DNA from: a virus | Virus record (IMG/VR): IMGVR_UViG_3300044953_000602 | Span: 1 to 28,497 of that record | Direction: 5' to 3' (one strand) | Length of the DNA stretch: 28,497 nucleotides | Shown here: positions 1,346 through 28,497 of the stretch, one piece after another | Position numbering within the stretch: position 1 is the stretch's first letter | How the letters are laid out: each line of letters begins with the position of its first letter | Position numbers and translations under genes: made by a program | Notes under the pieces: model-generated | Database searches by the model: none | The model's input: the letters and a program-made list of their open reading frames with translations, nothing else | What the model was told of the DNA's origin: nothing

Positions 1346-1801
1346 ATGACTGAAAAAATCATTTCATGGTGTGATTTAGAATCGTTGATTGTTAACAGTT
1401 CTATTAAAGATAAATATAACAATGTTGATTTGGTTGTGAGTATTGGCTCAGGGGGAATGACCCCTGGTGTTATTATTAGTAAAATGCTCAATAAACGTGT
1501 TGTTAACATTGGAGTAAAATCATATGCAATCGGTGATAAGCAAACTTTTAAAGCAGAATGGTATCAAGATTTCAAATTTAAGAAGAGTCTGCATAAAAAA
1601 ATCTTAATTGTTGATGATATTAATGACACTGGATATACTTTCCATAGTGTGAATTGTCATTTGATGTCGCAATACTTTACAGAAAATGATGTTTTTTTTC
1701 TATCAATGTATATGAAACCACATACAACTTTTACTGCAGATTATTTGCAAATGGTAAATAATGATACTTGGTTAAAATTTCCATGGGAGGTAGCGCAATG
1801 A
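1346..1801 (+). CDS. Phosphoribosyltransferase (purine type)
   Basis: A 151-residue type I phosphoribosyltransferase. The PRPP-binding loop is plain at residues 85-98 (ILIVDDINDTGYTF: hydrophobic run, two Asp, Asp-Thr-Gly-x-Thr), and a VVSIGSGGMTPG segment at about 30-41 fits the PPi-loop region near the N-terminus. Family members join a base, often guanine, xanthine or hypoxanthine, to PRPP. The size and layout fit bacterial xanthine-guanine enzymes, but the base is inferred. It begins an operon with 1798-2172 and 2169-2402, linked by overlapping stop and start codons. In a phage that may exchange guanine out of its DNA, it could salvage the released base. Confidence 0.8.
   Translation: MTEKIISWCDLESLIVNSSIKDKYNNVDLVVSIGSGGMTPGVIISKMLNKRVVNIGVKSYAIGDKQTFKAEWYQDFKFKKSLHKKILIVDDINDTGYTFHSVNCHLMSQYFTENDVFFLSMYMKPHTTFTADYLQMVNNDTWLKFPWEVAQ
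1785..1790 (+). promoter_or_regulatory. Strong ribosome binding site
   Basis: GGGAGG, 7 bases before the ATG at 1798, one of the few clear Shine-Dalgarno sites in the window. It decides the start of the next gene at 1798 over an upstream in-frame GTG-type start, and shows that internal operon genes are read by ordinary initiation. Confidence 0.65.
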
Positions 1802-6639: not shown

Positions 6640-6671
6640 AACCCCGATGCATATTAATATGCATCGGGGTT
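6640..6671 (+). terminator. Perfect 32-base palindromic hairpin
   Basis: A 16-base arm (AACCCCGATGCATATT) is followed directly by its exact reverse complement, with a GC-rich base and AT-rich tip. It lies 25 bases after the hsp20 stop and acts most likely as its terminator. The run after the stem is TATAAATATT rather than a T-tract, so termination may be incomplete. A late promoter box begins on the last base of the stem. Confidence 0.7.
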
Positions 6672-6678
6672 ATAAATA
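6671..6678 (+). promoter_or_regulatory. T4-type late promoter box
   Basis: Exact TATAAATA starting on the last base of the hairpin at 6640-6671, with 6 bases to the ATG at 6685. Confidence 0.65.
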
Positions 6679-6684
6679 TTATAA

Positions 6685-7293
6685 ATGTTCGATACTATAG
6701 ACCCTGACATTAGAACATCATTAATTGGCTTTATATCCGGTGTACTCGGCGCTATTGTTGTTTTTATTAAAAAAATATTAGGTAGTATCGCAGATAAAAT
6801 GTTCGTGTCTAAAGATAAAGTTATTGAAACTTTAAATGCAGGTAAATTAGTTAAAGATAGTTTAGAGAGTTTACGTGTGGAGTGGTCAGCTGATAGAGCT
6901 TCTATAATTCAGTTTCATAATGGTGGCTTCTTTTCAAATGGTGAATCAATGCAAAAATTCACTGTCACCTATGAAGAAATCAGCCCAGGGGTCAATACTC
7001 TTAGTAAAGTACTCAAAAATATACCACTAACTAATGCGCTTTGGATTGGTGAATTAATTAACGGGTGTGTAATTGCAAAAGTTGAAGACTTACAAGATGT
7101 AATATCTCGTACATTTTTTGATGAATTTGGCATTAAATCTATTATTGGGTGCCCATTGAAATATAATGAAAAAGTGGTTGGGTTAGTATTATTGCAATGG
7201 GTAAACAGTGTTGGTGTGTTTGATAGTAGTAATATTACAAAATTATCAGAGCAGTGTAAAAATATTCCATATCTATTAAAACCTATCAAGTGA
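6685..7293 (+). CDS. Membrane-anchored GAF-like protein
   Basis: A 202-residue protein with one N-terminal membrane helix (about 12-29, LIGFISGVLGAIVVFIKK), a helical linker (about 40-65) and a C-terminal GAF-like domain. In that domain, ADRASIIQFHNGG (70-82) and IIGCPLKYNEKVVGLVLLQW match the strand pattern of the small-ligand or structural GAF fold; proteins with an R-A-S-I-x-x-F-H-N-G-G segment after a helix occur in other phages and in host membrane proteins. No enzyme residues are seen. It is likely an inner-membrane protein with the domain in the cytoplasm, of unknown role. The late promoter implies expression late in infection, when lysis or assembly factors act. Confidence 0.65.
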   Translation: MFDTIDPDIRTSLIGFISGVLGAIVVFIKKILGSIADKMFVSKDKVIETLNAGKLVKDSLESLRVEWSADRASIIQFHNGGFFSNGESMQKFTVTYEEISPGVNTLSKVLKNIPLTNALWIGELINGCVIAKVEDLQDVISRTFFDEFGIKSIIGCPLKYNEKVVGLVLLQWVNSVGVFDSSNITKLSEQCKNIPYLLKPIK

Positions 7294-7978: not shown

Positions 7979-8929
7979 ATGGAAAAGAAACTCCACTATG
8001 ATAATGTTGCGTTAGTACCTGCTTACTCACGAGCAAAGTCGAGATCAGATTTAGACACAAGCACTATAATTGGTGACAGGAAAATTAAATTACCTGTTAT
8101 ACCAGCTAATATGAAATGCGTTATTGATACGTCTACTGCGCATTTCTTATCTGAAAATGATTATTTTTATATTATGCATCGATTTGATATTGATGTTATC
8201 GAATTTATTAAAAAAGCTAATAACGAGAACTGGAAATTAATTTCAATATCTGTAGGTGTAAAGGGCGCTGATATGGATCTCATTGATACAATTAGCAAAT
8301 TGAATTTGAGAGTTGATTTTATTACTATTGATATTGCTCATGGTCATAGTGAGTTAATGAAAAATATGATCAAAAAGATCAAAAGTACATTAACCGATAC
8401 ATACATCATTGCAGGTAATATTTGTACGGTTAATGGTTATAGTGATTTGGTAGATTGGGGTGCAGATATTATTAAGGTTGGTATTGGGCCAGGTGCAGCG
8501 TGCACGACTAAGCTCAAAACAGGATTCACATATCCTATGTTTAGCTGTGTTTCAGATATCTGTGCTTTTAAAGAGCAAACAAACACATTAGCACCTATTA
8601 TCGCAGATGGTGGTATCGCTTATAATGGTGATATAGCTAAAGCACTTGTCGCAGGTGCAGAATATGTCATGTGTGGTAAGCTATTCAGCGAGTGTACGGA
8701 TTCACCAGCTCTATCTGTAAACGGTCAGAAGATTTATTATGGCTCTGCATCACAACACAATAAGAGCCATAACTGCAACATTGAAGGTAAGTTGTTAGAG
8801 CTTGATCACAACGGTATGACATACCATGAAAAGTTGACAGAAATAACCCAAGATCTTCAAAGCTCCATATCTTATTCTGGTTTTACATCAATTAAAGATC
8901 TATGGAAAACAGAATGGGTGCTAATCTAA
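7979..8929 (+). CDS. guaC: GMP reductase
   Basis: A 316-residue TIM-barrel enzyme of the IMPDH/GMPR family. Catalytic Cys175 sits in GIGPGAACTTKLKTG (168-182), the family active-site loop. Upstream are the phosphate- and nucleotide-binding strands (SVGVKG, IDIAHGHS, AGNICT), and downstream IIADGGI. GMP reductase rather than IMP dehydrogenase is preferred because there is no CBS insert and the C-terminus (EGKLLEL, LQSSISYSG) matches reductases. It would convert GMP to IMP with NADPH. The GS-A-S flap differs from the usual GMSS. It runs up to the stop codon of the convergent minus-strand spike gene with no spacer or terminator. Confidence 0.85.
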   Translation: MEKKLHYDNVALVPAYSRAKSRSDLDTSTIIGDRKIKLPVIPANMKCVIDTSTAHFLSENDYFYIMHRFDIDVIEFIKKANNENWKLISISVGVKGADMDLIDTISKLNLRVDFITIDIAHGHSELMKNMIKKIKSTLTDTYIIAGNICTVNGYSDLVDWGADIIKVGIGPGAACTTKLKTGFTYPMFSCVSDICAFKEQTNTLAPIIADGGIAYNGDIAKALVAGAEYVMCGKLFSECTDSPALSVNGQKIYYGSASQHNKSHNCNIEGKLLELDHNGMTYHEKLTEITQDLQSSISYSGFTSIKDLWKTEWVLI

Positions 8930-10687
8930 TTAAACACCAGTCACGTTAACACTAGTTGATGATTCGTTCTGTATATATTCTAAAGCGCTTATACCAGACT
9001 TTGGATATTTATTAACGTTCGGTATACCAGATTCACCAACTGGCTCGTTGCTGTTGTATACTAGTGCAGAGCTTCTAACACCTGCATTAGCACTCACACC
9101 GTTTCCACTATCACCAGCTATAAGTGTGATTGGAATGTTTGGGAACTCATGACCATGTGGTGTTAACTCAACCGCAGCACCTGATTGTTGATCGAGAACT
9201 ATTGTAAATGGTTGATTGCTTACGACTAACGTGCCACCACTACCGTTAAACGTCGCTGGTACATTTAAGCTTAAAAACCCTGTTATTTGATCCCCGTTAC
9301 GCAAAAACCCACGAGCACCTTCTTTGGTAAACCCGATCAATGTTTGTTGAATCTCTTGAGGCGCGACAATATGGTTACATGTGATGTTGCCATCAAAATA
9401 ACCACCACCAGCTACTATTAAGTTTTGATTTATACCAACGTTACCATTCAGGAACACTTGACCCTCACTTGTTATGTTTAGATTTGATGATTCAATCGAT
9501 AGGTTTGTTTCACCTTTAATTATAATATCTTGACCACCAATAATAGTTTGTAGAGCACCGATCTTAAGCACGGTGTCTGTATTTAATTTAAACGAACCAC
9601 TGGTGGTTAAGCCGATACCACCACCACCCGCTTTAATATTCATACCATTACCAGCTTCAATTGTAAATTTACCGCATGGAAAAAATGAATGGTTATCCAC
9701 TTCAACTATTTCGGGAGCAGCTGATGGTACCGCGCAAAGACCAGGTGTTGTGACTGCGACACCAAACGGTACATCGCGACCCTTCATATCAACATATGCT
9801 TGTGGGTTGTCATTGGTTGTAGCCCCACAAACGATACGAATATTTCTGGATGCACACAACACATAGTCACCACCAGATCCTAACTTTGATTCAATAGCTG
9901 TCAATTTCTTTTGTGTGTTAGCTGTAGCTTCAGCACGCGCTGAAGGGCTCGGACCTGGTTCAGCTTTAGCACCGGCAGTAGATGGACTTGACGTTGATTC
10001 AAGATTGCTTAGAGCCTTAGGTAGTGGTAATTTATTTTTGGTTAACCCCTTAAGTGAATCTGTAGCACCTTTAGTAATATCTTCAACAGTTTTTACTGGA
10101 CCGGTAACCATCTTCTTTAAATTACTGTATACGTTTTTAACACCTGCTTTTGCTTGTTGTAGAGCATTTGGTGGTGTGGCTGTATGGTTTGATGTTTTAC
10201 CACTGTCTTCATTAGCTTTAATTTGATCAATACCGGTGTTAGATGCTAATTCAATTTTAGCATTTTTATAAAGAACTGGCGCTTTTTCAATCGCCACACC
10301 AGGCATAACCACTTGAACTGGTTTTTTCTCCGGTGGCAAACAATTAGACATTGCGTATTCTGTAACTTGTCTATTCCACTCAGCGTGAGCTTCGGTCTTA
10401 ATAGCACCGGAATCACCAATGATAACGTTTAAACTTTTTTCAACTCGTGTCCACTTATCACCACCTACATATGTGCAGTCATCCTTACCAACACTTTTGA
10501 AGCTATCTACAATTGTGTGGTGTTGTGTATTATTGGGGCTAAATAACGACACACCGGGTCCATTTAGTGTTAGTTGAGAACCACTATAAGCTCCAATGAT
10601 TATATGTTCGCGACCATCAGAATGGTTCATCACAATACTACCAGCACGTCCGGATATTACTGAGCTGTTTTGATATTTATCTGCCAT
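8930..10687 (-). CDS. Baseplate central spike, gp5 C-terminal part
   Basis: A 585-residue structural protein. Residues about 270-450 show short repeated beta strands rich in Gly, Asn and Ile (NGMNIKAGGGGIGL, TTSGSFKLNTDT, IIGGQDIIIKGETNLSI), as expected of the trimeric beta-helix needle of gp5/VgrG spikes. Residues 1-110 are also beta-rich (HSDGREHIIIGAYSGSQLTL), and 115-265 form an Ala/Lys/Ser linker. The C-terminal LTPHGHEF segment and a Gly/Ser-rich tail close the protein. No lysozyme domain is seen, unlike T4 gp5. Its ATG overlaps the end of the OB-fold gene by 11 bases, so the two products are probably made together as one spike. The gene ends the minus-strand baseplate operon. Confidence 0.72.
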   Translation of the reverse strand: MADKYQNSSVISGRAGSIVMNHSDGREHIIIGAYSGSQLTLNGPGVSLFSPNNTQHHTIVDSFKSVGKDDCTYVGGDKWTRVEKSLNVIIGDSGAIKTEAHAEWNRQVTEYAMSNCLPPEKKPVQVVMPGVAIEKAPVLYKNAKIELASNTGIDQIKANEDSGKTSNHTATPPNALQQAKAGVKNVYSNLKKMVTGPVKTVEDITKGATDSLKGLTKNKLPLPKALSNLESTSSPSTAGAKAEPGPSPSARAEATANTQKKLTAIESKLGSGGDYVLCASRNIRIVCGATTNDNPQAYVDMKGRDVPFGVAVTTPGLCAVPSAAPEIVEVDNHSFFPCGKFTIEAGNGMNIKAGGGGIGLTTSGSFKLNTDTVLKIGALQTIIGGQDIIIKGETNLSIESSNLNITSEGQVFLNGNVGINQNLIVAGGGYFDGNITCNHIVAPQEIQQTLIGFTKEGARGFLRNGDQITGFLSLNVPATFNGSGGTLVVSNQPFTIVLDQQSGAAVELTPHGHEFPNIPITLIAGDSGNGVSANAGVRSSALVYNSNEPVGESGIPNVNKYPKSGISALEYIQNESSTSVNVTGV

Positions 10688-11462
10688 AATCTATAGGGGG
10701 TAATAGTGGGGTTGGTGGGGTGCCAGCTGAAATTGGCGGGGGTAGTGTAGGTTCACTTCTCGGTGTGTTCACCGGTGAGGAAGGCGCCGTTGAGGAACTA
10801 CTTGTTGTTGGTGTTGAGAAACCACTTGTTTTTGGTGAAGAACCATTTGCTGCATTTTGAAACGATCCATCGAGAGCAAATATTTGAGTAAAAGCTGGTA
10901 CACCATTTATACCACCGATACATACTGGAAAATTACAATCACCTTTATAAAACAACAACAACACCTGTGCTCCAATTCTAGGTACACCAAAGGTACCTGA
11001 TGGTGCTTTATCATAAGATGGTACTGTTGCATATGCAAATGGGTTACCACGTGGAAGCAGATATTCATGTGGTTCTGCAAATGGTGTTTTAAAACCTTCA
11101 TATTTTCTTGCGTTATTTTCAGCAACAAAATCAAAAACACCATCATCACCAGTAGTCCCAGGACCCATATCAGTTAAAATAGGTGAGCAGATATCTGCCC
11201 ATGGGCAGAATGTTTTTAAGTATTCTGTCGATTGTTTATTCAAACTACCAACATTATCACCAATGGTCGGGTATTCAGCTTGATTTTTACTATTTAAAAA
11301 TGAAAAGAGATTAATACCATGTATGTCTGGTATATATACTTGTACACGACCACCACCTTGTATTGGGTCGTTTGTATCTATCACAATACCTTTATGTATG
11401 CTATAATCAGGTACATACCCTGTTTCATTTGTTTTGACTGTTGTTGGTGTTTTAATATTCAC
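10677..11462 (-). CDS. Baseplate hub/spike protein, gp5 OB-fold part
   Basis: A 261-residue protein with the gp5 OB-fold. KGIVIDTNDPIQGGGRVQVYIPDIHG (about 24-49) is the typical strand pair, and FGVPRIGAQVLLLFYKGDCNFPVCIGGI (about 158-185) the closing half with the conserved P-R-x-G and F-x-x-G-D. In T4 this domain binds the gp27 hub and leads into lysozyme and needle; here it ends in a Pro/Ser/Thr-rich tail (about 205-261) and a stop. The needle-like part is the next gene, overlapping by 11 bases in another frame. It abuts the upstream gene (11463) with no gap, so the three genes form one late transcript. Confidence 0.75.
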   Translation of the reverse strand: MNIKTPTTVKTNETGYVPDYSIHKGIVIDTNDPIQGGGRVQVYIPDIHGINLFSFLNSKNQAEYPTIGDNVGSLNKQSTEYLKTFCPWADICSPILTDMGPGTTGDDGVFDFVAENNARKYEGFKTPFAEPHEYLLPRGNPFAYATVPSYDKAPSGTFGVPRIGAQVLLLFYKGDCNFPVCIGGINGVPAFTQIFALDGSFQNAANGSSPKTSGFSTPTTSSSSTAPSSPVNTPRSEPTLPPPISAGTPPTPLLPPIDYGR

Positions 11463-12119
11463 TTATTTTTTAAAATTCATCGACATCTTATTGATTTTTT
11501 CCATCTGAGTAGCAGCTTTGTTTAGTTGACCCTTGTACTTATTTATAGGCCCTTCAAACACATTACCACCTAATTGTATCTTCTGCGTGATGTTACCTAC
11601 CACTTTATCAAAACTTTTATTGACATTTGCCATTATCTTTTTTGTGAGACCAGCAGTTGCTTTTTTCATCAGACATCCCATCATGTTAGCCATCATCGTT
11701 TCGCAGTTCTTCTTTTCTTTGTTAGCTTTTTTTAAGTCTCTTGCACGCTGACTTATTGTGGATTTTATATCTTTCAATGTATCTACTAGTTCACTAACAT
11801 CATTAAACAGTTTTTTTAAAGCTCGTAACGGTCCAAGTATTTTACCCGTTATTTTATTTATTGCATCTACGATTGCACCTTCTATGGCGTCTTTGGCTGC
11901 CTTAGCTAACGCAGCAGCAGATCCTAAAAGTCCACCAGCTGCAGCTTTTAGAGCACCACCAGCTGCAGCTTTTAGAGTACCAGTTGAAAGTGTGCTTGCT
12001 AAACAAGCACCAGCACCAATAACACCAATAACAGTAGTTGCTTTATCCAACAAACTATTAGCAGATGTTTTCAGATTGTTAATTGCTGGTAACAATCTAG
12101 GAATTGAAGGGAGTGCCAT
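11463..12119 (-). CDS. Ala/Lys-rich protein of the baseplate operon
   Basis: A 218-residue protein, not recognised. Residues 30-80 are Ala/Gly-rich and hydrophobic, with a repeated L-K-A-A-A-G-G unit (tandem 24-base DNA repeat). They could form a membrane-active or packed helical hairpin. Residues 95-135 are charged and coiled-coil-like (LVDTLKDIKSTISQRARDLKKANKEKK), and a Met/Cys-rich segment (CETMMANMMGCLMKK) follows. As first gene of the spike operon it may be a baseplate hub or tail-tip component. A late-type box with a 5-base spacer precedes the ATG. No homology to a known T4 hub protein can be claimed. Confidence 0.6.
   Translation of the reverse strand: MALPSIPRLLPAINNLKTSANSLLDKATTVIGVIGAGACLASTLSTGTLKAAAGGALKAAAGGLLGSAAALAKAAKDAIEGAIVDAINKITGKILGPLRALKKLFNDVSELVDTLKDIKSTISQRARDLKKANKEKKNCETMMANMMGCLMKKATAGLTKKIMANVNKSFDKVVGNITQKIQLGGNVFEGPINKYKGQLNKAATQMEKINKMSMNFKK
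11932..11977. repeat. Tandem 24-base direct repeat in coding DNA
   Basis: Two identical 22-base copies (11932-11953 and 11956-11977) with a 24-base period. They code for repeated LKAAAGG in the Ala-rich part of the 11463-12119 gene. A recent in-frame duplication is likely. Confidence 0.8.
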
Positions 12120-12124
12120 AAAAA

Positions 12125-12132
12125 TATTTAGT
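12125..12132 (-). promoter_or_regulatory. Late promoter-like box for the spike operon
   Basis: Read on the minus strand: ACTAAATA, then 5 bases (TTTTT), then the ATG at 12119. Two mismatches from TATAAATA, but the spacing matches the other late boxes. It touches the -35 box of the divergent dpdA promoter. Confidence 0.4.
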
Positions 12133-12159
12133 TGAATAACCAGTATACCAACCTATAAT
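12132..12159 (+). promoter_or_regulatory. Sigma70-type promoter for the dpdA cassette
   Basis: TTGAAT (12132-12137), 16 bases, then a perfect TATAAT (12154-12159), 6 bases before the dpdA ATG at 12166. Transcription would start at or within a base or so of the A of the ATG. Confidence 0.6.
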
Positions 12160-12165
12160 GGTTAT

Positions 12166-12984
12166 ATGTTTAATAAAATTAAAATTTCACATGAAACACC
12201 TTTAGCGTTAATGCCAAAGTCACGAGGTTATAATGATTACGACTATGCGTTGGTTCATCTTTTTGAAACACATCCAGACTATTATCAATTTTTTAAAGAG
12301 AGTTTAGCAATGGGTCGTGAAGTGCTATTAGATAATTCTATCTTTGAATTAGGGACAGCATTTGATTCAACTAAATTTTACAACTATATTTTAGATCTCA
12401 AACCAAGTTATTATGTCGTACCGGATGTTCTTGAAGATAGTAAAGCAACAATTAGTAGTTTTAACGAGTGGTGTAAAAACCATGATCTCGAACCTATTAA
12501 GTATATTCCAAAAATTGGAGTTGTTCAAGGAAAAACATTTAGTGAGTTAGCTGATTGTTATGAATTCATGTCACGTCACGCTGACTATATTGCAATTTCA
12601 TTTGATTATTCTTACTATCAAATTAGTGCGTTTGGTAATACAAGACTTGAACGCATGCGTAATGGTCGTGTTAAACTAATTAACAATCTAATTAGTGAAG
12701 GTATTTGGAATCATAATAAACCTCATCATTTGTTAGGTTGTTCACTTCCGAATGAGTTTAAGGAATATCACTCTATTGCTACTGATAGTATTAGATCAAT
12801 TGATACATCTAATCCAGTTGTTGCTGGGTTGCATAATATTAGGTACGTTGATGGTGTTGGATTAGTTGATAAGCTTAGTATTAAACTTTGCGACCTTATT
12901 GATTACAAACCAACACCCCAGCAAGAACAAGCTGTATTATTCAATGTTAACCAGTTTAAACTTATTAACCAATTTTACCTTTGA
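12166..12984 (+). CDS. dpdA: DpdA-like DNA guanine transglycosylase
   Basis: A 272-residue protein of the tRNA-guanine transglycosylase superfamily, in the phage DpdA style. DpdA enzymes swap guanine in DNA for a 7-deazaguanine base. Motifs in TGT order: LLDNSIFELG (54-63; Asp56 fits the TGT TDSGGFQ acid), VVPDVLED (84-91; Asp87, substrate binding), GVVQGKT (118-124; fits the GIVQGG loop), LLGCSLPNEF (189-198) and SIDTSNP (211-217; Asp213 as candidate nucleophile). The CxCxxC...H zinc site of tRNA enzymes is absent and the protein is shorter, which argues for DNA rather than tRNA as substrate. It is first in a cassette ending in queF, which supports the call. DpdA subfamily not determined. 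Confidence 0.75.
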   Translation: MFNKIKISHETPLALMPKSRGYNDYDYALVHLFETHPDYYQFFKESLAMGREVLLDNSIFELGTAFDSTKFYNYILDLKPSYYVVPDVLEDSKATISSFNEWCKNHDLEPIKYIPKIGVVQGKTFSELADCYEFMSRHADYIAISFDYSYYQISAFGNTRLERMRNGRVKLINNLISEGIWNHNKPHHLLGCSLPNEFKEYHSIATDSIRSIDTSNPVVAGLHNIRYVDGVGLVDKLSIKLCDLIDYKPTPQQEQAVLFNVNQFKLINQFYL

Positions 12985-12986
12985 TT

Positions 12987-13532
12987 ATGACAGTAACATT
13001 AACAAGAGAAGATTGCCTAAAGTTAGCTGAAACTTTAGATACAAAAACAAAGTCATACTTAGTAGATGATTGTATTGCAACATGGGATACAAAAAATCTA
13101 TGGCATCACGAACCTATTGCTTATTATAAAGATAAGACAATTGTAAGCGTGATGTTTGCTAATGTCGAGCATGTAGGTGGTGAACACATTCTATACATTC
13201 AAAGGGTGTTTACTATCCCGGAGTTTAGAAAGAAAGGCCACTTTAGAGAGCTCTTTAATGAAGTATATACATCGCAGTTTAATAACGGTGTTAGGTTCTT
13301 AAAACTATTTGTTAATGTTGATGCATATAAAGCATACAAAGCAATGAAATTTAATATGGTGCAACAGACTGAAGATGGTAAGTATTACTTAATTTTTATT
13401 CCAATGTTACATTATGTACTTGAATACAATAACTTTATTACTTCACTCTCACCAATTTCTTATTTCTTACCAGATGCAATAAATCTTTATTATCTGGATT
13501 TACAAAGGAAATATAATATTATTGACGTATGA
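12987..13532 (+). CDS. GNAT-family N-acetyltransferase
   Basis: A 181-residue acetyltransferase-fold protein. The acetyl-CoA motif A region is IQRVFTIPEFRKKGHFRELF (71-90), with R-K-K-G-H-F in place of the usual R/Q-x-x-G-x-G/A, followed by LKLFVNVDAYKAYKAMKF (105-122), the strand-helix of motif B (N-x-x-A-x-x-x-Y-x-x-x-G/K-F). The C-terminal 50 residues are unlike other GNATs. The ATG at 12987 is 2 bases after the dpdA stop; a TTG at 12981 would overlap it. GNATs acylate primary amines. Set between a DNA 7-deazaguanine transferase and QueF, which makes the primary amine of preQ1, it could acylate the base, but the substrate is inference. It could instead target a host protein. Confidence 0.7.
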   Translation: MTVTLTREDCLKLAETLDTKTKSYLVDDCIATWDTKNLWHHEPIAYYKDKTIVSVMFANVEHVGGEHILYIQRVFTIPEFRKKGHFRELFNEVYTSQFNNGVRFLKLFVNVDAYKAYKAMKFNMVQQTEDGKYYLIFIPMLHYVLEYNNFITSLSPISYFLPDAINLYYLDLQRKYNIIDV

Positions 13533-14092
13533 TTATTTCATTTACAGGTGCTCAATCTACAGGTAAATCGACATTGTTGAATATGTGCAAGGAACAGTTC
13601 GGAAATAAATTCGAATACTTCCCTGAAATCACCCGACAAATCAAAAACAATATTAGTGTTAACATCAACGAACTTGGTGATAGTTTAACACAATATCTTA
13701 TCATGAGCAAACATATCGAAAATATGTTTATTGCAAAACAGCATGCACATGTTTTCTTAGATCGGTGTGCTTTAGACGGATTGGTGTATACGAGATGGTT
13801 ACATCAAAAACATAAAGTTTCAAATGAAGTTATTGATTGTGCGCATGATATTTTTAATCGTTTAATTCACGATGTCGATGTTATTTTTTATACCGACCCA
13901 GCTGATGTTAAATTAGTTGATGATGGTGAGCGTAGTACGAGTATTTCATTTAGAAATGAAATCATTAGCTTATTTGAACTGCATATCGATAGATATATCG
14001 GAGATAATAAAGTTATTAAATTATCTGGTACTATTGATGAACGAATGAATACTATTAAAGAAACGTTGAAAGTGAAAGGTATTAGTCTATAA
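13529..14092 (+). CDS. P-loop kinase-like ATPase (AAA_28/NadR-type)
   Basis: A 187-residue P-loop protein. Walker A is GAQSTGKST (7-15), in the G-x-x-S-T-G-K-S/T form of the AAA_28/NadR-like kinase group. HVFLDRCALDG (74-84) gives the Walker B strand and the D-R of nucleoside or nucleotide kinases. VIFYTDPADV and DGERSTSISFRNEI (about 131-150) correspond to the lid with an Arg. It is about the size of a nucleoside or NMN/ribosyl-nicotinamide kinase; the substrate is unknown. The start overlaps the GNAT stop as ATGA. Its place in the dpdA-queF cassette suggests it prepares or modifies a nucleotide or base for DNA modification, but salvage of a nucleoside is equally possible. Confidence 0.7.
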   Translation: MIISFTGAQSTGKSTLLNMCKEQFGNKFEYFPEITRQIKNNISVNINELGDSLTQYLIMSKHIENMFIAKQHAHVFLDRCALDGLVYTRWLHQKHKVSNEVIDCAHDIFNRLIHDVDVIFYTDPADVKLVDDGERSTSISFRNEIISLFELHIDRYIGDNKVIKLSGTIDERMNTIKETLKVKGISL

Positions 14093-14093
14093 T
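14066..14093 (+). promoter_or_regulatory. Sigma70-type promoter for queF
   Basis: TTGAAA (14066-14071), 16 bases, then a perfect TATAAT (14088-14093), 5 bases before the queF ATG at 14099. It lies inside the 3' end of the kinase-like gene, so queF can be transcribed on its own as well as from the dpdA promoter. Confidence 0.6.
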
Positions 14094-14098
14094 ATATC

Positions 14099-15016
14099 AT
14101 GGCACTCGAAAAATTAGATAACTCAAATATTAGCGTCCACCTTGGTAAGACTTCTCAATATAAGTCTCAATATGATCCATCTCTTCTTGTAAGAGAACTT
14201 CGCAGTAATAATCGTAAGCATATTGGCATTGATGATGATAACCTCCCGTTCGTTGGTTATGATACATGGAATGCATATGAAATTTCTGCATTAACAAATA
14301 ATGGGTTACCTGTTACTGGTATTGCAAAGATTGTTTACCCAGCATCAAGTAAATACATTGTAGAATCAAAATCTCTTAAGCTCTACTTCAATTCATTTAA
14401 CATGACGAAGCTCGGTGTAACGTCTAGTGAAGTTAGAAGTAAAATTACAGAGCTAGCTATAAAAGACTTATCTGAACTTCTAGGTGTGGATGTTTCTATT
14501 AACGTCTTTAGTGATGAAGAAGTTGTTTTTGATCATAGTATGCTTCATATTGAATATTACGAAGACTGTATTACGTTAGAAAAACACTATGAACATAGTC
14601 TTACTGATGAGTTTACAGTATATCAAGAAACTCCTTCATTATTGGAAATTACTGAAGGTGATAATAAAATCAAAAAGTTTCATAGCGCACTTCTTAAATC
14701 AAATTGCCGTGTGACTAGTCAACCAGACTGGGGAGATGTTTTTATTGTTTATAAAAGCTCCAAGGATGTCGATCCAGTTTCGTTAGTAAAATATATTGTT
14801 TCATTTAGAGATGAATGTCATTTCCATGAAGAAATTTGCGAAACAATTTACAAGAGACTACATGATGCATTGCAACCAGAATTATTACATGTGATGTGTT
14901 TGTATGCACGTCGTGGTGGTATTGATATTAATCCACAACGCGCATCAAGTGATCAACACTTGCACGGTATTGTTGACAACCCAGCTTTCTGTCATACCAA
15001 AACACCTAAGCAATAA
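14099..15016 (+). CDS. queF: QueF, preQ0 reductase (long, bimodular type)
   Basis: A 305-residue NADPH-dependent 7-cyano-7-deazaguanine reductase, which turns the nitrile of preQ0 into the aminomethyl group of preQ1. Length and layout match the two-module E. coli form. Visible motifs: VESKSLKLYFNSFN (88-101), the QueF NADPH-binding motif with Glu89; SNCRVTSQPDWG (181-192), with catalytic Cys183 and Asp190; FHEE (222-225), with His223 and Glu224 for preQ0 binding; and RRGGIDINP (251-259). All key residues are present, so it should be active. In the host the product feeds tRNA queuosine; beside dpdA it more likely makes preQ1 for phage DNA. The gene is closed by a strong terminator. Confidence 0.93.
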   Translation: MALEKLDNSNISVHLGKTSQYKSQYDPSLLVRELRSNNRKHIGIDDDNLPFVGYDTWNAYEISALTNNGLPVTGIAKIVYPASSKYIVESKSLKLYFNSFNMTKLGVTSSEVRSKITELAIKDLSELLGVDVSINVFSDEEVVFDHSMLHIEYYEDCITLEKHYEHSLTDEFTVYQETPSLLEITEGDNKIKKFHSALLKSNCRVTSQPDWGDVFIVYKSSKDVDPVSLVKYIVSFRDECHFHEEICETIYKRLHDALQPELLHVMCLYARRGGIDINPQRASSDQHLHGIVDNPAFCHTKTPKQ

Positions 15017-15025
15017 TCGTTACAT

Positions 15026-15062
15026 AAAAAAAGCCCGTGAGCTATAGCTCACGGGCTTTTTT
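15026..15062. terminator. Bidirectional intrinsic terminator
   Basis: A 10-base-pair GC-rich stem (GCCCGTGAGC, 15033-15042, with its complement at 15047-15056) and a TATA loop. A-tract before and T-tract after, so it can end both the queF transcript and the convergent minus-strand transcript ending at 15068. Confidence 0.9.
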
Positions 15063-27904: not shown

Positions 27905-27932
27905 ATTATATACTAGATCTCACCATGTTCAA
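27905..27932 (-). promoter_or_regulatory. Sigma70-type promoter for the DUF366 gene
   Basis: On the minus strand: TTGAAC (27927-27932), 16 bases, TATAAT (27905-27910), then 5 bases (GTATT) and the ATG at 27899. The same geometry as dpdA and queF. Confidence 0.6.
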
Positions 27933-28497
27933 GTTTTTCCTGGAATTCTTTAACAGAAATAACATTCATCAGATCTCTTTTGTTATTAGCGTAATACCAG
28001 TATGTTTTAGCGACAGATATTGGTACTTTATCATATAATGTTTGAGAACCAGGTTTGATAATACCACAACCGCAGTCTGTGTCAACAACACACACACTAA
28101 CACTTGGATTGTTATATCTAAAATCAATTATAGATCTAAAAACCGTACCATTCCAACAAACCTTGATAAACTCTTCACAGTGTGGTAAACAGTCATGAAT
28201 AACCACCACACCACCAGGGTTAATTATCTTAAGTGAGTTAACAATATCAATAGTGCTCTGCTCTTCTAGATGTAACCCATCAACAAACACTATATCAAAC
28301 GTCTCCGTATTACGCTTGAAAAACTCATCTGATGTCATTGTGTGTGTCAAATGTTCATAATTCTTTTCTGGGTCCACACACACTTTGTAGTCAATTTCGA
28401 TTTTATCAAAGCAAGACCCAAACTGAGTTCCGATTTCTAGGTATGACTTATACCCATGCTTTTTGATTAGTGAGTTTATTATTTCGTATCGTTGCAT
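27913..28497 (-). CDS. SAM-dependent methyltransferase, Methyltransf_24-like
   Basis: A 194-residue class I methyltransferase. Motif I is YLEIGTQFGSCF (19-30), the SAM loop; VCVDPEKN gives the acidic residue that binds the ribose; FDIVFVDGLHLEEQ (67-80) is the motif IV-like strand; GGVVVIHDCLPH (94-105) follows. The family includes many small-molecule O-methyltransferases and phage proteins of unknown substrate. There is no DNA-recognition domain or N-P-P-Y motif, so it is not a typical DNA base methyltransferase. The ATG is at the last three bases of the window (28495-28497), so the protein may be complete, but the upstream context is not visible. An operon partner to the right cannot be judged. 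Confidence 0.72.
   Translation of the reverse strand: MQRYEIINSLIKKHGYKSYLEIGTQFGSCFDKIEIDYKVCVDPEKNYEHLTHTMTSDEFFKRNTETFDIVFVDGLHLEEQSTIDIVNSLKIINPGGVVVIHDCLPHCEEFIKVCWNGTVFRSIIDFRYNNPSVSVCVVDTDCGCGIIKPGSQTLYDKVPISVAKTYWYYANNKRDLMNVISVKEFQEKLEHGEI

Follow-up and report, generated by a model that had tools for sequence, protein, structure and literature searches.

Among described systems, the nearest to the four-gene operon analyzed here is the cassette of Flavobacterium phage vB_FspM_immuto_2-6A, in which DpdA is followed by a small open reading frame (ORF), a formyltransferase, a 'thymidylate kinase', and QueF. Our operon lies in a 28.5-kb virus record of a T4-like phage, a virus of bacteria (IMG/VR record IMGVR_UViG_3300044953_000602; "the window" is this whole stretch of 28,497 nucleotides), and shares with immuto the gene order, a DpdA that is 47% identical, a homologous kinase and QueF, and a phosphoribosyltransferase nearby. 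However, it carries a GNAT where immuto has the formyltransferase (PF00551), and immuto has one extra small ORF as well as FolE, QueD, and QueE directly upstream. A dPreQ1 formyltransferase, DpdN, and the base formyl-dPreQ1 were reportedly described by Cui and colleagues in 2023. The activity we propose for the GNAT resembles that of DpdN, namely, acylation of the aminomethyl group of (d)PreQ1, although the two enzymes belong to different superfamilies and presumably differ in acyl group and donor. Another acetylated aminomethyl group on a phage DNA base is 5-acetylaminomethyl-deoxyuridine of Pseudomonas phage PaMx11, said to have been described by Lee and colleagues in 2022, but there the base is a pyrimidine and the pathway is different. 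In the Campylobacter CP220 group, a DpdA with 46% identity is followed by a homologous kinase, and CP220 relatives encode a phosphoribosyltransferase homologue, but neither QueF nor an acyl enzyme stands beside DpdA; guanine in this group is replaced by a deazaguanosine, according to a passage in PMC8713573 that cites Crippen 2019. In the DNA of Dp-1 and HVTV-1, QueF-type proteins go with dPreQ1 (PMC6884629); these viruses resemble the window in having a QueF-type enzyme yielding preQ1 in viral DNA but differ in their gene sets, with no GNAT described.

We propose that the window operon probably makes and inserts an acylated 7-deazaguanine, with the GNAT acylating the amine of preQ1. The four genes form a plus-strand block (12166-15016), which is listed here with its flanking signals.

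12132 to 12159, plus strand: candidate sigma70-like promoter, TTGAAT-16-TATAAT, ending 6 bases before the DpdA start; arrangement conserved in two related loci, L002 and L003
12166 to 12984, plus strand: DpdA, putative DNA-guanine transglycosylase of the CP220/immuto type, 272 aa; transglycosylase fold, 46-47% identity to the immuto and CP220 proteins
12987 to 13532, plus strand: GNAT N-acyltransferase, proposed preQ1 acetyltransferase, 181 aa from the ATG start; PF00583 above cut-off, GNAT fold, slot swap
13529 to 14092, plus strand: P-loop nucleoside/nucleotide kinase, 187 aa; AAA_28, nearest solved relatives NadR kinase, dTMP kinase, and deoxynucleoside kinase
14099 to 15016, plus strand: QueF, putative bimodular preQ0-to-preQ1 reductase, 305 aa; QueF domains, catalytic Cys and Asp motifs aligned with 3bp1
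15027 to 15062, plus strand: intrinsic terminator with a 16-pair stem, a 4-base loop, and a T run

The original prediction, made from the sequence alone, had placed these four genes in this order, and the ORFs are confirmed, with their identities supported by domain or fold matches. The predicted spacing (2 bases, a 4-base overlap, and 6 bases) and the strong terminator are likewise correct, and the block does run against the minus-strand late genes of this T4-like phage, the flanks including structural genes for portal, major head protein, prohead protease, neck, and tail-sheath-stabiliser proteins.

The main evidence for the role of the GNAT comes from related loci. DpdA relatives were collected in two IMG/VR scans, the first giving 22 loci and the second the best 80 of at least 539, and 98 distinct records, cultured-phage loci included, were classified by gene profiles; 92 were resolved, and 6 stayed undecided because the contig ended or the DpdA was distant. 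The order DpdA-[slot]-kinase-QueF recurs in IMG/VR, and since DpdA is followed by the kinase in 92 distinct loci, the cassette order is above chance. This genome-context search for the gene order in other phages had accompanied the original prediction as a check, and it also recovered the GNAT variant, in four loci. Counted as best matches with near-copies included rather than as frequencies in nature, the slot between DpdA and the kinase is empty in 59 loci (58 from IMG/VR plus CP220), holds a formyltransferase in 29, and holds a GNAT in 4 (the window and three relatives). Thus, a GNAT in the slot is rare, and the remaining cassette is a recurrent arrangement. All 10 slot formyltransferases tested match PF00551, and the N-x-H-P and D motifs are kept in 30 of 30 homologues; this enzyme probably adds a formyl group to the altered guanine. 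In the window, no formyltransferase lies between DpdA and the kinase, and the GNAT is found there instead.

Phylogenetic analysis places the GNAT-bearing DpdAs in one clade (support 100/93 in the DpdA tree). In a FastTree phylogeny of concatenated DpdA, kinase, and QueF, rooted for drawing on immuto and L023, this clade is sister to formyltransferase loci L019, L020, and L022 (0.98) and nested within formyltransferase loci (0.90), where the empty-slot loci also nest as one group. A formyltransferase profile found no match in the three contigs of GNAT relatives, of which one spans 184 kb, or in ten empty-slot contigs, while both positive controls were detected; the possibility that the GNAT relatives encode a formyltransferase elsewhere was rejected on the search of those three contigs. 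The simplest history suggested by these sequences would be an ancestral formyltransferase, one loss, and one replacement by the GNAT, which thus appears to have taken over the slot. Because one N-acyltransferase replaced another with QueF retained, the GNAT would be expected to acylate the preQ1 amine. Its lineage would have traded one acyl-transfer enzyme for another, perhaps escaping defenses that recognize the older base, and the new base may itself protect the genome from restriction.

The GNAT itself matches PF00583 at 22.9 bits, against a Pfam cut-off of 20.7, and its model matches N-acetyltransferases (best Foldseek E 6e-7). An in-frame TTG at 12981 is an alternative start, and ATG 12987 aligns with the starts of relatives. 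Outside the window, the gene occurs in three IMG/VR contigs only, and identity across the four genomes is 64-66%; no relative was found among 50,697 records of cultured phages (best E 0.2) or in bacterial genomes in one scan with two peptide patterns, and no publication in the library searched connected a GNAT with preQ1 in phage DNA. The usual acyl donor of GNATs is acetyl-coenzyme A (CoA). The enzyme would most likely use it to add an acetyl group to preQ1, either as the free base or in DNA, giving N-acetyl-preQ1, that is, 7-(acetylaminomethyl)-7-deazaguanine, of which the slot formyltransferase of relatives would make the formyl analogue. Transfer of a different acyl group, such as propionyl, succinyl, or amino-acyl, is quite unlikely given this general preference for acetyl-CoA, even though the donor is not readable from the sequence and the CoA loop ends in an unusual residue.

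Alternatively, the GNAT might be a passenger, a host-takeover or counter-defense enzyme acetylating a protein or small molecule, which entered the slot as the formyltransferase disappeared from it and left plain dPreQ1 as the virion base. GNATs are common and versatile, the best structural matches include protein N-alpha-acetyltransferases, and 58 relatives exist without any slot gene. We nevertheless regard this as unlikely, because the gene occupies the exact slot, is tightly packed with DpdA and the kinase, and is kept in four genomes at the identity given above, and because exchange between two N-acyltransferases is more specific than a chance insertion. Several points weigh against acylation of preQ1 by the GNAT. 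The enzyme's acceptor is not readable from the sequence, and its model has only modest confidence, with a predicted local distance difference test score (pLDDT) of 67.8. Its CoA loop, RKKGHF, fits the initial positions of Q/RxxGxG/A, with the same R, G, and F in all four homologues, but departs from that motif at the last position (F). A single swap event, kept in four genomes, carries the whole argument; the DpdA-only tree leaves the GNAT clade unplaced relative to the formyltransferase loci, with the long CP220 branch joining it; and a search of the 184-kb relative at E 1e-3 gave no QueE.

Other genes also enter the slot region. In L007, an insert of about 6 kb (8634-14839) splits DpdA from the formyltransferase and carries CsgG and CsgF (curli secretion), FecR, and a CHASE2-adenylate cyclase, so that a curli cluster interrupts a DNA-modification cassette; Pelagiphages are known to carry curli clusters with FecR and adenylate cyclase (PMC9599517). 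Inserts of similar size are present in L068, L071, L076, L089, L096, and L101, gene content having been read in L007 only. GIY-YIG homing-endonuclease-like ORFs immediately follow DpdA in L010 (10845-11048) and L012 (8428-9180), and in L022 a 210-aa ORF without a Pfam match (10807-11439, plus strand), lying between DpdA and the formyltransferase, could be a further decorating enzyme.

The substrate of the GNAT would be provided by QueF, which would reduce preQ0 to preQ1 and so supply the primary amine. The protein matches the QueF_N and QueF domains (1e-32 and 2e-22) and is bimodular, with SNC and QPDWG motifs aligned with the catalytic Cys and Asp of 3bp1; against TIGR03138 it scores 255.8 bits, under the strict cut-off of 293.45. 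On every contig of sufficient length, QueF comes after the kinase, with the exception of CP220. The preQ0 would be made by FolE, QueD, QueE, and QueC, encoded elsewhere in the phage genome or by the host: no preQ0 genes are among the annotated ORFs of the window, the 184-kb GNAT relative encodes FolE, QueD, and QueC, and a 65-kb relative encodes FolE and QueD, with QueE weak or not found in both.

DpdA has no Pfam match, and sequence searches of the PDB were unsuccessful, so a fold search was needed to identify it. Its AlphaFold2 model (pLDDT 90.8) has the fold of tRNA-guanine transglycosylases (TGTs); Foldseek matched it to 2pot (E 5e-9), and the matches listed are all TGTs. VIA-align gave a Z score of 18.6 and a root-mean-square deviation (rmsd) of 2.9 over 238 residues against the archaeosine TGT (ArcTGT) 1iq8, and a Z score of 17.9 and an rmsd of 3.1 over 233 residues against the solved DpdA 7ui4. 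Among cultured phages, it is most similar to the protein annotated as 'DNA guanine transglycosylase' in immuto (47%) and to one without annotation in the CP220 group, which it matches at 46% identity across 96% of the query length (E 2e-59). Candidate catalytic-aspartate motifs, judged as sequence motifs alone, are kept in nearly all of the 97 full-length homologues (LDNS in 96, DTSNP in 94). The model thus suggests that DpdA would exchange guanine in DNA for a deazaguanine, and together with the active-site motifs of QueF it points to a 7-deazaguanine cassette that should be able to make preQ1, as originally predicted. We take this DpdA to belong to the DpdA3 subfamily, which Cui and colleagues reportedly associated with complete guanine replacement in 2023; complete replacement by dADG is reported for the CP220 group.

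The kinase, which matches AAA_28 (5e-15), has only weak similarity to its nearest solved structures, namely, NadR ribosylnicotinamide kinase, dTMP kinase, and deoxynucleoside kinase. Its motifs are conserved among 90 homologues (Walker A and, for the lid arginine, DGxRS in all; for the DR motif, DRC in 86). In all close relatives whose DNA extends far enough, the gene comes after DpdA, and it lies downstream of DpdA in 92 of 92 resolved loci whatever the slot holds, including the 58 empty-slot loci from IMG/VR; in CP220 it follows DpdA without QueF or an acyl enzyme beside DpdA. In phages whose DpdA is more distant (Bacillus, Weizmannia, and Chryseobacterium), a P-loop protein with weak kinship to the window kinase directly precedes DpdA. 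Since the kinase is present whatever the slot holds, we infer that it belongs with base insertion or guanine recycling and not with decoration. A decorating role was therefore rejected, and of the earlier proposal that the GNAT and the kinase jointly make an acyl-preQ1, the part concerning the GNAT remains plausible in view of the swap with the formyltransferase of 29 related loci, while a role for the kinase as a partner in making the derivative is not supported.

Two further genes of the window may belong to the same pathway.

1346 to 1801, plus strand: xanthine/guanine phosphoribosyltransferase, proposed guanine salvage partner; NCBIfam NF006613 (E 1e-15), distribution among phages
7979 to 8929, plus strand: GMP reductase, possible partner; NCBIfam NF003966 (E 1e-98), also in the records of L002, L003, L007, and L076

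Of 13 related records, 10 have a counterpart of the phosphoribosyltransferase, and every one of the five longer than 100 kb is among them. Among the 50,697 phage records, homologues occur in nine, all from phages with DpdA or preQ0 genes: Campylobacter phages CP21 (two), WX1, IBB_35 (two), and CC_R7, two Brevundimonas phages, and Synechococcus phage BUCT-ZZ01. The DpdA of IBB_35 is encoded on a sister record of that phage, and that of CC_R7 is divergent (27% to that of CP220). In BUCT-ZZ01, QueD and QueE flank the gene; in both Brevundimonas phages it adjoins FolE and a deoxynucleoside monophosphate (dNMP) kinase, with QueC, QueD, and QueE upstream, and one of the two has a distant DpdA relative before its DNA polymerase. 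This distribution suggests that 7-deazaguanine pathways include a step of their own for guanine salvage or nucleotide formation. It fits salvage of DpdA-released guanine to GMP and also the making of a modified base into a nucleotide.

In the nucleotide route, the phosphoribosyltransferase and kinase, with ribonucleotide reductase, would make a deazaguanine deoxynucleoside triphosphate from the base or from a DpdA-exchanged nucleotide, and the polymerase would insert it, replacing G completely, with the GNAT decorating base or nucleotide. The constant pairing of kinase and DpdA, the restriction of the phosphoribosyltransferase to 7-deazaguanine phages, the Brevundimonas cluster of dNMP kinase, FolE, and phosphoribosyltransferase, the DpdA relatives adjoining DNA polymerase genes, and the NrdA and NrdB encoded in the window all agree with this route. 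However, guanine salvage accounts for the same genes, and the TGT fold retained by DpdA speaks for base exchange in a polynucleotide; for this reason we prefer the salvage loop and consider insertion by the polymerase doubtful. The isoelectric points (DpdA median, 5.5) fit DNA and nucleotide substrates without favoring either. In the preferred salvage loop, the kinase and phosphoribosyltransferase may return released guanine to GMP and GDP, and on to GTP for preQ0 synthesis. The GMP reductase could lower guanine nucleotides during modification in either scheme. It is improbable, though worth stating, that essentially the whole genome is written with acetyl-preQ1 for G, with phosphoribosyltransferase and kinase delivering it as a nucleotide and the slot gene acting as a swappable outer-group module.

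The predicted sigma70-type promoter matches 10 of 12 consensus positions and recurs at the equivalent position in L002 and L003, which lends it mild support, but by count such sites are at chance level in the region (23 found against 20.9 expected), and the promoter stays a plausible candidate. Ending so close to the DpdA ATG, it would give a leaderless or nearly leaderless transcript. The T4-type late promoter motif TATAAATA occurs at 43-56 and 6671-6685 on the plus strand and at 15623-15610, 18556-18543, and 22794-22787 on the minus strand, each of the five sites at most about 13 bases from a start codon. Window genes have no evident Shine-Dalgarno sequences, and late transcripts of this phage may be leaderless or nearly so. 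A partial DNA methyltransferase-like ORF (phrog_27561) lies at the window end (27913-28497, minus strand).

If the proposed reading is true, it predicts an acetylated DNA base, N-acetyl-dPreQ1, of which to our knowledge there is no report, and the GNAT is the single gene on which this prediction turns. The locus would then be a natural experiment: one lineage of phages would have altered the outer group of its base through exchange of the enzyme class, with the cassette otherwise kept. With the kinase and the guanine phosphoribosyltransferase as two neglected partners, the question of how a phage keeps up heavy guanine replacement would become directly testable.

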